NCBI GenBank assembly: GCA_937860055.1
Contig: CALMBO010000026.1
Coordinates: 186,001 to 250,000, forward strand
Reading direction: 5' to 3'
DNA: 64,000 nucleotides
DNA from: an uncultured Verrucomicrobiota bacterium
Lineage (GTDB): Bacteria > Verrucomicrobiota > Kiritimatiellia > CAIQIC01 > Lenti-01
Notes under the pieces: model-generated
Seen by the model: only the letters and a program-made list of their open reading frames with translations
Told to the model about the DNA's origin: nothing
The model's database searches: none
Shown: in pieces, positions 40,151 through 47,496 of the stretch
Position numbering within the stretch: position 1 is the stretch's first letter
Layout: each line of letters opens with the position of its first letter
Position numbers and translations under genes: made by a program

Positions 40151-42247
40151 GTGGCGAAGGAAGTCAAAATCGAGGCGGCGGGGCGCGGGCACGCGCTGGC
40201 GGCGATCCGGAACATCGGGATCGTCGCCCATATCGACGCGGGCAAGACGACCACGACGGAGCGGATGCTGTACTACACGGGCAAGGTGCACAAGATGGGG
40301 GAGGTTCACGACGGCACGGCCGTGATGGACTGGATGGTGCAGGAGCAGGAACGGGGCATCACCATCACGAGCGCGGCGACGACGTGTTTCTGGCGGGACC
40401 GCCAGGTCAATATCATCGACACGCCGGGGCATGTGGATTTCACGGCGGAAGTGGAGCGGTCGCTGCGGGTGCTGGACGGGGCGGTGGGGGTGCTGTGCGC
40501 GGTGGGGGGGGTGCAGCCGCAGTCGGAGACGGTGTGGCGGCAGGCGAACAAGTACGGCGTGCCGCGGATCGCGTTCATCAACAAGATGGACCGCACGGGC
40601 GCGGGCTTCGAACGGGTGATCGCCGAAATGCGCGCGAAGCTGAAGGCGCCGGCGACGGCGATCCAGATCCCGTGGGGGTGCGAGGAAAATTTCCGGGGAG
40701 TGGTCGATCTGGTGCGCCGGAAGGCGCTGACGTTCGACGAGGATGCGCTGGGTTCGAAGGTGAAGGAGCAGGAGGTTCCGGCGGAGCTGGCGGAGGCGGC
40801 GCAGAAGGCGCGCGAGGCGCTGCTGGAGGCCGTGGCGGAGACGGACGAGGCGCTGCTGAACGCCTATCTGGACGAGGGGGATCTGTCGGAAGAAGCGCTG
40901 CGGGCAGGGATCCGCAAGGCGACGGTGGCGGGGAAGATGGTGCCGGTGCTGTGCGGCACGAGCCTGCGCAACAAGGGCATCCAGCCGTTGCTGGACGCGG
41001 TGGTCGACTACCTGCCGTCGCCGCTGGACGTGCCGCCGGTGAAGGGCCGGCACCCGAAGACGGAGGAGGAGATCGAGCGGACGACGGGGGATTTCGAGCC
41101 GCTGTGCGCCCTGGCGTTCAAGGTGGCGACGGATCCGTTCGTGGGCAAGCTGGTGTTCATGCGGGTGTATTCGGGGGAATTGCGCAAGGGCGCGAACGTG
41201 TTCAATCCGCGCACGCAGAAGCGGGAGCGCGTGATGCGCCTGATCCGCCTGCATGCGAACCAGCGCGAAGAGATCGATGCGCTCTTTTCGGGCGAGATCG
41301 GGGCGATCGCGGGGATCAAGGGCGTGGGGACGGGGGACACGCTGTGCGCGGAGCAGAAGCCGATCGTGCTGGAGAGGATCCATTTCCCGGAGCCGGTGGT
41401 TTCGATGGCGATCGAGCCGAAGACGCAGGCGGACAAGGAGAAGATGCAGAACGCCCTGGCGGACCTGGCGGACGAGGATCCGACGTTCCGGGTGGGGCAG
41501 AACGCGGAGACGGGCCAGACGATCATCCAGGGGATGGGCGAGCTGCATCTGGAAATCCTGCGGGACCGGATGCTGCGGGAGTTCAAGGTGCAGGCGAACG
41601 CGGGGCGGCCGATGGTGGCGTACCGCGAAACGATCACCGGCACGGGGCGGGCGGAATTCACGTTCGACCGGGAGCTGGGCGGGAAGCGCCATTTCGCGAT
41701 GGTGGGGCTGCTGCTGGAAAAAAATGAGCGGGGTTCAGGAAATAGTGTTGACTTCAAAATTTCATCTGATTTAATCCCGCACGATTTTCGATCTGTCGTG
41801 GAGGAAGGAATCCACGACGGGTTGAGCACAGGCGTGTTGGGAAATTTCCCGCTAGTCGACGTCCGGGTGACGGTGGTCAACGGCCAATGGCATCCGGTCG
41901 ACTCGTCGGAAATCGCCTTCCGGTCGGCGGCTTCGATGTCGCTGCGAGAGGCGGCGAAGGCAGCGCGCCCGGCCCTTCTGGAGCCCATCATGGCGCTCGA
42001 GATCGTGTCGCCCGAGGAACACCTCGGGGACGTGCTGGGCGATTTGAATGCGCGCCGCGGCCAGGTGAAAGACGTGGCGCAGCGGGATGGAACGCGGGTG
42101 ATCGAGGCCTCCGTGCCCTTGGCGGAGCTGTTCGGATACGCCACGACATTGCGTTCTTTGACACGTGGACGCGCCGGGTATGCGATGGAGCCGACCCGGT
42201 TCGATGTGGTGCCGGAAAACTTGAGTCAGGAATTGATGAACCGTTGA
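40151..42247 (+). CDS. fusA: translation elongation factor G
   Basis: 698 residues from a GTG start, with AGAGGA upstream. The GTPase motifs are [14 protein letters not shown] (G1), [10 protein letters not shown] (G2), DTPGHVDF (G3), NKMD (G4) and CGTS (G5). Domains II-V follow, with [11 protein letters not shown] in domain III and the domain [13 protein letters not shown] region. It drives translocation and, with RRF, ribosome recycling. It is not preceded by rpsL and rpsG, and tuf is missing after it; rpsJ follows 13 nt later. Bases 41719-41800 are only 40% G+C, against about 67% before, without any frame shift; a promoter-like sequence sits there. Confidence 0.96.
41748..41775 (+). promoter_or_regulatory. 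internal promoter within fusA, upstream of rpsJ
   Basis: TTGACT (41748-41753), 16-nt spacer and an extended -10 TGATTTAAT (TTTAAT at 41770-41775): five of six matches to each sigma70 element plus the TG. It is inside an AT-rich island of the EF-G coding sequence, about 480 nt before rpsJ. Internal promoters in fusA that drive downstream genes are known in Escherichia coli. Confidence 0.6.
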
Positions 42248-42260
42248 CAGAGAAGAGAAC

Positions 42261-42569
42261 ATGAGCGGACAACGAATCAGAATACGGCTGAGGGCCTTCG
42301 ACCACCGGATGCTGGACCAATCGGCCAGCGAAATCGTGGAAACGACCAAGCGCACGGGCGCCCGCGTGGCGGGACCGATCCCGATGCCGACGCGCATCGA
42401 GCGCTACACGGTGAACCGCAGCGTCCACGCGGACAAGAAGTCCATGGAACAATTCGAGATCCGCACCCACAAGCGGCTGCTGGACATCATCGACCCCACG
42501 GCGAAGACGGTGGACGAGCTGAAGAAGCTGAACCTGCCGGCGGGCGTGGACATCCAAATCAAGATCTAG
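42261..42569 (+). CDS. rpsJ: 30S ribosomal protein S10
   Basis: 102 residues, the normal length. The [15 protein letters not shown] start, [17 protein letters not shown] loop and [10 protein letters not shown] are canonical. S10 sits in the 30S head and also takes part in antitermination with NusB. First ribosomal gene of the cluster, 13 nt after fusA. Confidence 0.98.
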
Positions 42570-42582
42570 GGGAAGGACGTCC

Positions 42583-43212
42583 ATGCAAGCATTGATTGGC
42601 AAGAAGATCGGCATGACGCGCGTCTACGACGACGCGGGCGTCCAGGTTCCCGTGACGGTGGTCCAGGTGGGCCCGTGCACGGTGGTGCAGCGCAAGAGCG
42701 CGAAGCCCGACGGCTACGAGGCGGTCCAGCTCGGTTTCGAGGAGCAGAAGGAATCGCGCCTGACGAAGCCCCTGCAGGGCCATTTCAAGAAGGCGGGCGC
42801 GAAGCCCCAGAAGGTGCTGCGCGAAGTGCGCTTGGCGAAGGGCGAGGACGCGAAGGCCGGCGACGTGCTGACCGCGAAGGTGTTCGAAGGCGTGAAGTTC
42901 GTGGATGTGCTGGGCCACACGAAGGGCCGCGGGTTCCAGGGCGTCGTCAAGCGCTTCAAGTTCGGCGGCGGCCGGGCGGCGCACGGCGGCGGCTGGCTGC
43001 GCAAGCCGGGGTCCATCGGCAACCGCGAATGGCCGGGCCGCATCTTCAAGAACAAGCGGCTGCCGGGCCACATGGGTTCGGTGGACATCACGACGCAGAA
43101 CCTGCGGGTGGTGAAAGTCCTGGCGGACGACCACGCGCTGCTGCTGGAAGGCGCGGTGCCCGGTCCCGTCGGCGGGATCGTGCTGGTGCGTAAAGCGATC
43201 AAGAAGGCGTAA
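42583..43212 (+). CDS. rplC: 50S ribosomal protein L3
   Basis: 209 residues. Canonical start GKKIGMTRVYDDAG and the Gly-rich extension loop (GGRAAHGGGWLRKPGSIG, where the family often has GSMGS-type sequence) reach toward the peptidyl transferase centre. Strong GGAAGGA ribosome site. 13 nt after rpsJ. Confidence 0.98.
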   Translation: MQALIGKKIGMTRVYDDAGVQVPVTVVQVGPCTVVQRKSAKPDGYEAVQLGFEEQKESRLTKPLQGHFKKAGAKPQKVLREVRLAKGEDAKAGDVLTAKVFEGVKFVDVLGHTKGRGFQGVVKRFKFGGGRAAHGGGWLRKPGSIGNREWPGRIFKNKRLPGHMGSVDITTQNLRVVKVLADDHALLLEGAVPGPVGGIVLVRKAIKKA

Positions 43213-43217
43213 GGGTC

Positions 43218-43856
43218 ATGAGCAAAATTGCCATCTACAATCTGAGCGGCGAAGCGGCCGGCGAGAAGGAAATCGCCGACAAGCTTCTGGAGACGAAGCG
43301 CGGCGCGCAGGCCGTGCTGGACGTGGTGACGGCCTACCGGGCGGGCATCCGCGCCGGTTCGGCGTCGACGAAGAAGCGCGGCGAAGTGAGCGGCGGCGGC
43401 CGCAAGCCGTACAAGCAGAAGGGGACCGGCCGGGCCCGCCAGGGATCCATCCGTTCGCCGATCCTGCGGGGCGGCGGCATCGTGTTCGGCCCGCACCCGC
43501 GGGATTATTCGAAGAAGGCCAACAAGAAGACCGTGGCGCTGGCGTTCCGCCGGGCCTTGAGCGAGAAGATCGCGTCCGGGGCGGTGGCGGTGGCCGAGGG
43601 GATCGAGAAGATCGAGCCGAAGACCAAGGCGATTTCCGGTTTGCTGAAGAAGGCCGCGGCCGGCCGCGCGACGCTGTTCGTGACGGGCGCCGCGAACAAG
43701 AACCTGGGCCTGGCGGCGCGCAACGTGTCGAAGGTGGAGGTGACCACCGCCGCGCAGGCGAACACCTACCAGATCGAGCGCTATCCGTTCATCGTGGCGG
43801 ATGCGGCCGGCCTGGATGTCCTGAAGGCGCGGCTCTCGGAAGGGGCGGAACAATGA
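43218..43856 (+). CDS. rplD: 50S ribosomal protein L4
   Basis: 212 residues. The exit-tunnel loop RAGTRSGSASTKKRGEVSGG-like region, with GGRKPYKQKGTGRARQGSIRSP, is present. Overlaps rplW by 4 nt. L4 autoregulates the S10 operon in gammaproteobacteria; no matching leader is evident before rpsJ here. Confidence 0.98.
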   Translation: MSKIAIYNLSGEAAGEKEIADKLLETKRGAQAVLDVVTAYRAGIRAGSASTKKRGEVSGGGRKPYKQKGTGRARQGSIRSPILRGGGIVFGPHPRDYSKKANKKTVALAFRRALSEKIASGAVAVAEGIEKIEPKTKAISGLLKKAAAGRATLFVTGAANKNLGLAARNVSKVEVTTAAQANTYQIERYPFIVADAAGLDVLKARLSEGAEQ

Positions 43857-44131
43857 AGAACCTGGTCGTCAAGAAGTTGCTGGTGACGGAAAAGGGCTCC
43901 CGCCTCAAGGAAGCCGGGAACCAGTACGTTTTCGAAGTGGACCGCGATGCGAACAAGCTGGAAATCCGCCGCGAGGTGGAGCAGCGGTTCAAGGTCAAGG
44001 TCCAGGGTGTGAACACGATGGCCCGCCGGGGCAAGGCCAAGCGGCTGCGCACGGCGTCCTATGGCCGCACGCCGGATTGGAAGCGCGCGGTGGTGACGCT
44101 CCAGGCCGGACAAACCATCGAGATGGCATAA
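43853..44131 (+). CDS. rplW: 50S ribosomal protein L23
   Basis: 92 residues. Near the exit-tunnel opening, the docking site for trigger factor and [28 protein letters not shown] is typical. Overlaps the rplD stop (ATGA). Confidence 0.97.
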
Positions 44132-44144
44132 GCGAGGATCGAAC

Positions 44145-44975
44145 ATGGGTCTCAAGACATACAAGCCGAAGACGGCGGCGCTGCGCTTTACGACGCTTTC
44201 GGATTTCGAAGGCATCAGCAAGAAGCGGCCCGAGCGGTCGCTGATCGCGATCAAGAAGAGCCAGGCCGGCCGCAACGCGCAGGGCCGGATCACGATCCGC
44301 CATCGCGGCGGCGGGCACAAGAAGTTCCTGCGCCTGGTGGATTTCAAGCGGCAGCAGAAGCTGGACATCCCGGCGAAGGTGCAGGCGATCGAGTATGATC
44401 CGAACCGCACGGCGCGCATCGCCCTCCTGGCGTACGCGGACGGCGAGAAGCGCTACATCCTCGCGCCGAACGGCCTGAAGGCCGGCGCGACGGTGTTGGC
44501 GAGCCCAAAGGCGGAGCCGGTGGACGGCAATGCGCTGCCCCTTTCCGCGATTCCGCTGGGCATGGCGATCCATGCGATCGAACTGGCTCCGGGCGAAGGC
44601 GCCAAGATGGTCCGCAGCGCCGGCATGGTGGCGCGCATCGCGGCGCGCGACGAGGCGTTCGTGCAGATCAAGCTCCCCTCGGGCGAGACCCGCAAAGTGC
44701 GGGCGGAATGCTACGCGACGATCGGGCAGGTGGGCAACCTCGAGCACGAGAACATCTCGCTGGGCAAGGCCGGCCGCAAGCGCTGGAAGGGCATCCGCCC
44801 GACCGTCCGCGGCGTGGCGATGAACCCGGTGGACCATCCGATGGGCGGCGGCGAAGGCCGCACCTCCGGCGGCGGCCACCCGGTGACGCCGTGGGGCCAG
44901 CTGACCAAGGGCAAGAAGACGCGCAGCGACCGCAAGCCGTCGGGCCGGTTCATCGTGCAACGGAGAAGGAAGTAA
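44145..44975 (+). CDS. rplB: 50S ribosomal protein L2
   Basis: 276 residues, full length. [28 protein letters not shown] and the C-terminal [25 protein letters not shown] block with the conserved histidine near the peptidyl transferase centre are intact. Confidence 0.98.
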
Positions 44976-44976
44976 C

Positions 44977-45261
44977 ATGACGCGCTCAATCAAAAAAGGA
45001 CCGTACGTGGAAGGCCACCTGATGAAGAAGGTGGAGGCGCTGAATGCCAGCGGGGCGAAGCGTCCGATCAAGACCTGGTCGCGCCGCAGCATGATCCTGC
45101 CGGAGTTCGTGGGCCATACGTTCACGGTGCACAACGGCAAGGTGTTCACGAGCGTGTTCGTGACGGAAAACATGGTGGGACACCGGATGGGCGAGTTCTC
45201 GCCCACGCGGACGTTCCGCAAGCACGGCGCGGCGACGGACAAGACCATCGCGCTGAAGTAA
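44977..45261 (+). CDS. rpsS: 30S ribosomal protein S19
   Basis: 94 residues. [37 protein letters not shown] and [15 protein letters not shown] are canonical. One nt after rplB. In most bacteria rplV follows directly; here another gene intervenes. Confidence 0.98.
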
Positions 45262-45272
45262 CGAGATTTTGG

Positions 45273-46025
45273 ATGATGGGCTTCCGTCGTGGATTGCGGC
45301 TCCTGTGGGCCGTTCCGGTGGTGGGAGCCGCGCTGGCGGCGGGCTGGTTCTTCGGTTCGCAGCGGGCGGAGAAAAGTTCTTTGACGGAAGGGCCGGCGAC
45401 CGCGCCGGCACGTCTTGAAGAAGGGACCGGGCCAGCCCCGGAAACCCTGGTTGAGGCGGAGACGGCCGAGATTTCGGTGCAGTCCGCGATGGATGTGGAA
45501 ACCAACACCATCCGCGTGGACGGGCACGCAGCAGCGGCCGTGGGAGGCGCGGCGGATGGCCCAAACGACGAGTTGCTGGACCTGGTGGCGAGCGAGTCCC
45601 GCCTGGTGACGGCCCGTCTGGCGAAGGAGATCGCCGGGTTGCGGAGCGACCTGGAGGACCGGAGCCGGCGGATCCGGAAACTGAGCGAGGCCCTGGCCGA
45701 GGCGCAGGCCGCCCTGGATGTGAACGAGGCGCGGCGAGCCGCCGAGGCGGGCGCCGCGGCGGAAACGCCGGCGGATGCGCCGGTCGAGGCGAGGATCGCG
45801 GACGTGAACGCGGATCTGGGCCTCGTGATCCTGGACCAGGGCGCCCGGCAAGGTGTGAGATACGGGCTGCCGTTGACGGTGCTGAGGGACCGGAGGCGGG
45901 TGGCGCGGATCCGCGTCGTGGATGTGAGAGAGAAAATCGCCGGTGCGTCGGTCGAGGAGACCGCGCGCGGCGACTACCCCCAAACAGGGGACCGAGCGGT
46001 GCTGATCCGGCCGGAAGGTCCCTGA
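45273..46025 (+). CDS. membrane-anchored coiled-coil protein inserted in the S10 operon
   Basis: 250 residues, not ribosomal. One transmembrane helix near residues 9-29 (LLWAVPVVGAALAAGWFFG), a Pro/Ala/Glu-rich linker to ~90, a coiled coil at about 95-155 (LDLVASESRLVTARLAKEIAGLRSDLEDRSRRI region), and a C-terminal beta domain with VNADLGLVILDQGARQGVRYG and RRVARIRVVDVREK. The last domain resembles one seen in PVC surface or flagellar-associated proteins, possibly glycan- or peptidoglycan-binding. The start codon has only a weak ribosome site, and rplV follows after 10 nt. Base composition and codon use match the neighbours, so recent transfer is not indicated. Function unknown. Confidence 0.8.
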   Translation: MMGFRRGLRLLWAVPVVGAALAAGWFFGSQRAEKSSLTEGPATAPARLEEGTGPAPETLVEAETAEISVQSAMDVETNTIRVDGHAAAAVGGAADGPNDELLDLVASESRLVTARLAKEIAGLRSDLEDRSRRIRKLSEALAEAQAALDVNEARRAAEAGAAAETPADAPVEARIADVNADLGLVILDQGARQGVRYGLPLTVLRDRRRVARIRVVDVREKIAGASVEETARGDYPQTGDRAVLIRPEGP

Positions 46026-46035
46026 GGAACGAGAC

Positions 46036-46386
46036 ATGGAAATCAAAGCAGTATCGAAATATGTGAGAATGACGCCGACCAAGGCGCGGGACCTGACGCG
46101 GGCCATCACGGGCAAAAGCGTGGGCGAGGCGCTGCAGGTGGTGGAGCTGAACAAGCGCAAGACGGCGGCCTGCATCGGCAAGACGCTGAAGTCGGCGATC
46201 GCCAACGCGGAAAACAACGCGGAGCTGTCGGCGGACAAGCTGTATGTGGCGAAGGCGGTGGTCGAGAACGGGCCGACGATTCCCCGGTACTGGCCGCGGG
46301 CCCGCGGTTCGGCGACCCCGATCCGCAAGAAGACGAGCCACATCCGCATCACGCTGACGGATGAGAAGCCGTCGAAGAAGAAATAG
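46036..46386 (+). CDS. rplV: 50S ribosomal protein L22
   Basis: 116 residues. KYVRMTPTKARDLTRAITGKSVGEAL and the tunnel-loop IPRYWPRARGSATPIRKKTSHI are recognisable. GAGGAACGAG precedes the ATG. Ten nt after the inserted coiled-coil gene, 32 nt before rpsC. Confidence 0.97.
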   Translation: MEIKAVSKYVRMTPTKARDLTRAITGKSVGEALQVVELNKRKTAACIGKTLKSAIANAENNAELSADKLYVAKAVVENGPTIPRYWPRARGSATPIRKKTSHIRITLTDEKPSKKK

Positions 46387-46418
46387 GCCGGATTTAGAGA
46401 GAACGAAGGAGGCACGTT

Positions 46419-47093
46419 TTGGGCCAAAAAGTCAATCCGATCGGGTTCCGCACGGCGGTCCACAAGCAGTGGAAGAGCCGCTGGTTTGCGGAGAGGAAAG
46501 AGTTCGGCGACCTGCTGAACGAGGATTTGGTGATCCGCGACATGGTGCGCGCCAAGCTGAAGGACGCGGCGGTGGCGGATATCGTGATCGAGCGGTACGC
46601 GCAGCGCGCCCGCGTGACGGTCTACACGGCCCGGCCGGGCGTGGTGATCGGGCGCAAGGGCGAGGGCATCGACAAGCTCCGCGAGGAGCTGAGCGCGAAG
46701 ACCGGCAAGGAGATCTACGTGGAGATCAAGGAAGTGCGCAGCCCGGACACGAACGCGCAGCTGGTGGCGGAAAGCATCGCCCTGCAGCTGGAGCGCCGGG
46801 TGGCCTTCCGCCGCGCGATGAAGCGTGCGCTGCAGCTGACGATGGACATGGGCGCCCTGGGCATCCGCGTCCAGGCCTGCGGCCGCCTGGGCGGCGCGGA
46901 GCTGGCGCGCGTCGAGCACTACATGGTCGGCAAGGTGCCGCTGCAGACGCTGCGCGCGGATGTGCAGTATGGATTCGCCGAGGCGAACACGATGGCCGGC
47001 AAGATCGGCGTGAAGTGCTGGATCTGCCAGAAGCCCGAAGCGGCCGACGCCAAGGCCCCGAGCAAGGAGAAGTCGTATGCCCCTTATGCCTAA
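46419..47093 (+). CDS. rpsC: 30S ribosomal protein S3
   Basis: 224 residues from a TTG start (46419) with GAAGGAGG six nt upstream; this gives the universal [10 protein letters not shown] start. The KH domain ([19 protein letters not shown]) and C-terminal mRNA-entry domain are complete. It overlaps rplP by 17 nt. Confidence 0.97.
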
Positions 47094-47496
47094 GAGAGTG
47101 AAGTACCGCCAGAGCCAGCGCGGATCGCGCAAGGGCCTGGCGCAGTCGGGCAACACCCTGGCGTTCGGCGAGTACGGCCTGCGCGCGATGGAGCGCTGCT
47201 GGATGACGAACATCCAGATCGAGGCCTGCCGCGTGGCGATGAACCGCGAGATGAAGCGCAAGGGCAAGCTGTGGATCCGGATCTTCCCGGACAAGTCCTA
47301 TTCGAAGAAGCCGCTCGAGGTCCGCATGGGCAAGGGCAAGGGCGCGATCGAAGGCTGGGTGGCGGTGGTCCGCCCGGGCCGCATCCTGTTCGAGATGGAC
47401 GGCGTGACCGAGCCGCAGGCGATGGAATGCCTGCGCCTGGCCGCGACGAAGCTGCCGATCCGCACGATGTTCGTGCGGCGCGGGGTCACCCTGTAA
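47077..47496 (+). CDS. rplP: 50S ribosomal protein L16
   Basis: 139 residues. [16 protein letters not shown] matches the usual [11 protein letters not shown] start, so 47077 is chosen over the inner ATG 47086. [25 protein letters not shown] and [16 protein letters not shown] are canonical. Confidence 0.97.

Follow-up and report, generated by a model that had tools for sequence, protein, structure and literature searches.

The genes rpsS and rplV, which encode ribosomal proteins S19 and L22, rank among the most stable pairs of bacterial genes and are normally adjacent. The antitermination element of rRNA operons, an RNA signal that controls their transcription, is boxA, which in B. subtilis reads TGTTCTTTGAAAACT. 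FlgT, to which we return below, is a three-domain protein of the flagellar T-ring. In gamma-proteobacteria the boxA consensus is GYTCTTTAANA, a sequence bound by the NusB-NusE (S10) complex, and in some of these bacteria boxA also occurs near rpsJ (PMC5725501). Ribosomal operons do break up, and in Gammaproteobacteria and Bacilli a documented route is insertion followed by full disconnection (PMC8046335). Our literature search found nothing on the rplV-linked gene described here, or on boxA in Verrucomicrobia. The window, by which we mean the whole stretch of 64,000 nucleotides analysed here from an uncultured Verrucomicrobiota bacterium, carries a str-S10-spc cluster that is standard apart from one extra open reading frame between rpsS and rplV. 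The original prediction, made from this sequence, was of a membrane-anchored coiled-coil protein; what we add to it is a boxA-like element, constraint at the nucleotide level and spread across the phylum.

The gene between rpsS and rplV and its predicted product

The extra gene (45273..46025; all features of the window described here lie on the plus strand) encodes 250 amino acids and is flanked by rpsS (44977..45261) and rplV (46036..46386), starting 11 nt after the end of the former at 45261 and stopping 10 nt before the start of the latter at 46036. The gene is real and on the same strand as its neighbours, with the predicted gaps of 10-11 nt. It had also been said that the gene must be cotranscribed with these neighbours; operon membership holds, and cotranscription with the S10 operon is almost certain. 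The 5' end reads ATG ATG, that is, two tandem candidate starts. Since the second ATG alone is kept in two relatives (L007, L009) and the first alone in another (L010), the start is at 45273 or 45276. The frame is kept in relatives and is under purifying selection, with dN/dS of 0.05-0.31 in the beta domain and 0.14-0.55 in the coil. Its composition, said to match that of its neighbours, does so only roughly, with a GC content of 0.70 versus 0.61-0.68 and a GC3 of 0.82 versus 0.88-0.92, the linker having a GC3 of 0.71.

Hydropathy and AF2 modelling bear out the membrane helix, coiled coil and beta domain that had been proposed. A single membrane helix is encoded at 45300..45356 (residues ~10-28; Kyte-Doolittle maximum 1.79 at residue 10), and the AF2 model, which rests on 8 close sequences, has a helix at residues 6-33, disorder at 28-93, a single long helix that spans 96-161 and strands between 172 and 243, within the C-terminal region (170-250) for which structure prediction had been suggested. 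The coiled-coil helix (45558..45755, residues 96-161) is modelled with a pLDDT of 83-97 over residues 101-160, mostly above 90. The C-terminal beta domain (45786..46001, residues 172-243; ~75 aa) has a predicted FlgT-C / MreC-like fold at a pLDDT mostly of 84-92, and reaches 87.5 when modelled alone. The length of the protein ranges from about 150 to 320 aa in relatives, and in many of these a signal peptide whose cleavage region is rich in alanine takes the place of the membrane helix. With either a signal peptide or a membrane helix across relatives, the product is, on sequence grounds, exported. By the positive-inside rule the N-terminus is predicted to be cytoplasmic. The coiled coil probably serves to form oligomers, with a small beta-barrel domain exposed to the periplasm in the manner of MreC and FlgT. 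An envelope role would follow from this architecture. As for the proposed link between ribosome output and the envelope, it is plausible through co-expression alone, and physical contact with the ribosome is unlikely because the cytoplasmic part comprises only ~8 residues.

Sequence searches did not place the protein in a described family, no curated model scoring above its cut-off. Pfam and NCBIfam, queried with single proteins and with alignments, gave no credible match, only coiled-coil noise and weak FlgT_C and MreC scores, and a sequence search of the PDB gave coiled-coil noise only. FlgT_C (PF16538) stayed below its cut-off, with a best E of 0.01 among members and no match for the window protein; weak sequence matches to it occurred in 3/15 and 2/10 members. 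In Foldseek, the best match of the full model was an MreC model (4e-4), followed by FlgT (2e-3). For the domain alone FlgT (3w1e) came first (E 5e-3, TM 0.68 by query length, rmsd 5.0), followed by F1/V1-ATPase beta barrels and MreC, none of them below 1e-3. We read these modest structural matches as fold hints and not as signs of family membership.

The Foldseek result, together with the order of membrane helix, coiled coil and beta domain, raises the question of whether this lineage uses the protein as its MreC, the gene for the cell-shape scaffold having been relocated to the S10 operon. Weak NCBIfam scores (E 0.05 here and 0.002 in one relative) point the same way. However, the gene has no room for two beta domains and falls below every MreC model cut-off, with no PF04085 match and an NCBIfam MreC score of 12.8 bits against a cut-off of 343, while a full-scoring PF04085 protein is encoded elsewhere in the genome (G000:C29:197709-198158, E 3e-43) and a separate MreC was found in 12/14 tested genomes. 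We therefore rejected membership of the MreC family, and consider it extremely improbable that the gene is a relocated mreC. As a side observation, two near-complete genomes that carry the rplV-linked gene (G274, G285; f50 g113) gave no MreC (PF04085) match.

Spread within Verrucomicrobiota and linkage to rplV

The same gene is found in the same place in seven public metagenome-assembled genomes at 68-89% identity, the labels of these genomes being Verrucomicrobia, Lentisphaerae, Opitutia or Spartobacteria. Within the GTDB order, 26/28 genomes give a match, and every locus with readable ribosomal flanks (24/24) has the gene between rpsS and rplV. At class level the profile matches 87/266 genomes, in which the operon gene and a dispersed paralogue are mixed; 43 operon matches could be paired with a listed rplV, and each of them (43/43) immediately precedes it, on the same strand. 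The original prediction would have been refuted by absence of the gene between rpsS and rplV in all close relatives or by a frame that is not conserved. Instead the gene is found there, in frame in close relatives, and far beyond the class as well. It is absent from whole families of the class (f18, f19, f22, f25, f26, f51, f55), and hence is not universally essential. Two further arrangements were seen in the class. In one family (f32; G242-G249; L123, L128, L131) rpsS, rplV and the nearest relative of the gene lie at separate genome sites, and at three loci (L110, L096, L111; families f28 and f27) rpsS and rplV are separated by spacers of ~180-205 nt with neither the gene nor boxA.

Across the phylum, a profile built from 31 operon copies matches 198/289 genomes, and the best 12 out-of-class matches, when followed, all adjoin rplV (12/12). 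In 70 further out-of-class genomes rpsS, rplV and the gene were each located independently, and 68 of these gave ribosomal matches. The gene is directly upstream of rplV in 45 of the 68, which is not an estimate of prevalence since out-of-class genomes were mostly picked for having a profile match; this brings the out-of-class total with the gene before rplV to 57 genomes. The order rpsS-gene-rplV is intact in 16 of the 45. The other 29 have an S10 operon that is split after rpsS, and the gene then heads a piece running rplV-rpsC-rplP and onwards (examples L243-L248); many families outside the class show this arrangement. Operon copies from inside and outside the class are homologous (hhalign probability 99.7%, E 2e-25). 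In a tree of 98 beta domains, built on only 76 columns, all copies linked to rplV fall on one side of one branch and the dispersed paralogues on the other (SH-aLRT 97). We propose an rplV-linked exported coiled-coil family of Verrucomicrobiota whose members lie directly upstream of rplV, have a coil and a beta domain and fall on this single branch, a combination found in the copies examined. Neither Pfam nor NCBIfam has an entry for the family, despite its apparent presence in much of Verrucomicrobiota.

Dispersed paralogues occur in many genomes, some of which lack an operon copy. One (G000:C27:109131-109718, minus strand; L099:6135-7076, minus strand) encodes 313 aa with a membrane helix, a long coiled coil and the same beta domain, and it adjoins an M23-peptidase-like ORF. 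Since the beta domain is the best conserved part of the operon protein and the paralogues share its architecture, the mature operon protein probably has a function of its own.

The gene might nevertheless be a passenger, an envelope gene that was inserted once in an ancestor and kept in place by an essential promoter and neighbours, its position having no regulatory meaning. Its loss in several families fits this account, as does the sequence of events, insertion and then disconnection, which is the one documented in other bacteria (PMC8046335). The link to rplV, however, is retained in 29 split operons, and neither the embedded boxA nor the frozen synonymous sites described below would be expected of a passenger. 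We judge this explanation unlikely; every rival considered here conflicts with at least one result, and this one the least severely. The original suggestion that the gene may simply use a strong operon turned out to be too weak for related reasons: the link to rplV outlives the operon break before the gene, and the coding region bears a putative boxA-type site for Nus factors, which a hitch-hiking gene does not need.

A boxA-like element and nucleotide-level constraint in the coding region

A boxA-like sequence, GTTCTTTGA, lies inside the gene at 45376..45384, 660 nt before the rplV start codon. The exact sequence occurs in 12/82 dereplicated operon genes, where shuffled sequences give an expectation of 0.15, and in 0/28 paralogues. 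Operon genes of several families, both within the class and outside it, share the motif just after the membrane-helix or signal-peptide codons. The site is conserved as nucleotides and not as peptide: the outer letters of the flanking codons vary (AGT, GGT, CGT or TGT, followed by TCT TTG A..) around an unchanged GTTCTTTGA, which includes a TCT codon, rare here (4/171 Ser codons). In one out-of-class relative with the motif in its operon gene (G323), the 16S-23S spacer contains AACGTTCTTTGAAAACTA, an exact copy of GTTCTTTGA, and the 16S leader has GCGTTCTTTGGCAATA at -260, with one mismatch to it; 1.6 Mb of sampled sequence from this genome (both strands) held one other exact match. The site in the operon gene thus matches the rRNA boxA of the lineage as seen in this one relative, and, judged by the position and core of these matches, GTTCTTTGA is a boxA. 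Exact or one-mismatch boxA is absent from the operon gene in most families that have the gene. The protein can thus be separated from boxA, and carrying boxA cannot be its sole reason to exist. Two genomes from different families with split operons (L205, L239) have in common GATGTTCTTTTAAAA, which may be a variant boxA, at ~570-610 nt ahead of rplV.

The window has two exact matches to GTTCTTTGA where 0.15 are expected. The second (42153..42161) falls within the 3' end of fusA, at a distance of 108 nt from the downstream gene rpsJ (42261-42569), which encodes S10, that is NusE. It is exact in the window and in seven relatives of family f1 (L250-L255, L259), 105-116 nt upstream of rpsJ, and its context in the family of the window is GTTCTTTGACACG(T/C)GGAC. 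In other families the same RSLT/RSLS peptide is encoded by different, mostly GC-rich codons. In one genome (G012; L254) rpsJ is preceded by something other than fusA, and GTTCTTTGACACGTGGAC is nevertheless kept intact, which again points to selection on the nucleic acid.

We also considered whether GTTCTTTGA could be the -35 element (TTGACA-like) of a promoter giving rplV and the genes downstream a start of their own. In some copies, such as the one upstream of rpsJ, CTTTGACA does resemble TTGACA. The conserved letters, however, reach upstream (GTTCT) whereas the 3' letters vary (TTGATT, TTGAAT, TTGAGC), and the same 9-mer is the rRNA boxA of G323. No sigma-70-like pair was found in 42000-46500, on which ground we rejected the promoter, a very improbable explanation of the motif.

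The constraint extends beyond the motif to the segment encoding the linker (45375..45560, residues 35-96), where codon-position variation and dS point to nucleotide- rather than protein-level constraint. Among 12 genomes the fraction of variable sites at the three positions of codons 35-96 is 0.42/0.55/0.45, with no excess at the third position. Synonymous variation at invariant residues was found in only 3/22 cases in the linker, whereas the coil shows it at 19/19 and the beta domain at 30/39; dS in the linker is depressed, with dN/dS at ~0.9. The invariant linker blocks include GTTCTTTGA at 45376 and an inverted repeat, GCCGGCG-NCCG-CGCCGGC, at 45392. In the window this repeat reads GCCGGCG-ACCG-CGCCGGC (45392..45409; helix 1) and begins 7 nt after the boxA-like element; in the 12 genomes 100% of its cells are paired, and six of its seven pairs never vary. 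Further candidate stems are GCGGA(..GCCGA/UCGG..)UCCGC (45453..45488; helices 2 and 3), in which one pair is changed on both sides, and CCAUCCGC ... GCGGAUGG (45508..45559; helix 4), with 99% of cells paired and no covariation. Both RNAalifold and pair counts found covariation in the linker stems to be nearly absent; the stems are almost invariant, so covariation cannot confirm them. With a folding z-score of -3.05, the linker does not surpass the beta-domain RNA (-3.32), and an Rfam search of 43800-47200 returned nothing credible. With invariant stems and an unexceptional folding energy, we claim no structured RNA beyond the sequence motif.

This distribution of constraint bears on another explanation, namely that the gene is a regulatory leader peptide, whose exported N-terminus and the RNA that follows would sense protein export and adjust rplV and the genes downstream, much as SecM acts on secA, the rest of the protein being minor. 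The boxA does lie just after the membrane or signal-peptide codons in most copies, and RNA-level constraint is confined to the linker segment. However, the beta domain would then hardly be the best conserved part of the protein, nor would dispersed paralogues be expected to share its architecture, and no conserved arrest peptide was seen. A leader peptide is therefore, in our estimate, a quite improbable account of the gene.

A proposed dual role and its relation to known systems

Overall we lean, with some reserve, towards a dual role in which an envelope protein is made at the rate of ribosomal proteins while its mRNA serves as a NusB-S10 site. An ancestral Verrucomicrobiota envelope gene would have become fixed before rplV and taken on two jobs. 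In the first, the exported protein, anchored here by its N-terminal helix and in many relatives carrying a cleavable-looking signal peptide, may act as a structural or adaptor protein with an MreC/FlgT-like display, its amount tracking that of the ribosomal proteins and hence growth. In the second, the 5' part of the coding region would provide a boxA in several lineages, that of the window included. NusB-S10 may bind this boxA in the nascent transcript, and the bound complex would either keep RNA polymerase Rho-resistant over the remainder of the S10-spc operon or allow S10 levels to feed back on it; in the family of the window, the mid-operon boxA would be paired with the second site just before rpsJ. 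That the boxA in the frame of the exported protein forms a mid-operon nut-like control region, through which S10, the first product of the operon, acts with NusB on its second half, is a more tentative proposal, to which we give slightly less than an even chance.

If this last proposal holds, a single Nus-factor signal would tie together the output of ribosomal proteins, rRNA and an envelope protein in part of the phylum. An in-frame boxA would extend Nus-factor control from rRNA into a ribosomal-protein operon, and it offers short sequences to mutate. An envelope gene put between rpsS and rplV, and kept with rplV after the operon broke, offers in addition a natural test of the coupling between growth, ribosomes and the envelope.

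Among the systems close to the operon protein are its dispersed paralogues, which resemble it in joining a membrane helix, a coiled coil and the same beta domain, but differ in their longer coil, a WNFVVxDIG-type domain, a location away from ribosomal genes, the lack of boxA and their place on the other side of the tree. MreC (PF04085) has the same order of parts, from inner-membrane helix through coiled coil to a periplasmic beta fold, and Foldseek similarity; the operon protein, however, has one short beta domain and no Pfam match, and the true MreC lies elsewhere in the genome. The C-terminal domain of FlgT (PF16538) is the best structural match of the beta domain, whereas FlgT as a whole is not known to have the coiled coil of the operon protein. 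The PVC signature protein (CT421.2) is likewise a conserved protein of the PVC group without a known role, but it is reported to have 53 to >80 aa (PMC3444138) against 250 here, and on this difference in size we rejected identity with it. For the nucleotide element, the closest system is the boxA of rRNA operons, the site of NusB-NusE (S10). The core GTTCTTTGA is identical to that of the G323 spacer boxA and lies on the coding strand of a ribosomal operon, and the second copy upstream of rpsJ has its counterpart in some gamma-proteobacteria (PMC5725501). In contrast to rRNA boxA, the putative binding site described here is inside the translated gene of an exported protein, midway along the S10 operon. 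Published boxA sites outside rRNA operons (suhB, rpsJ, ribH-nusB and a parE-like toxin gene) are located upstream of genes, unlike the site in the operon gene.
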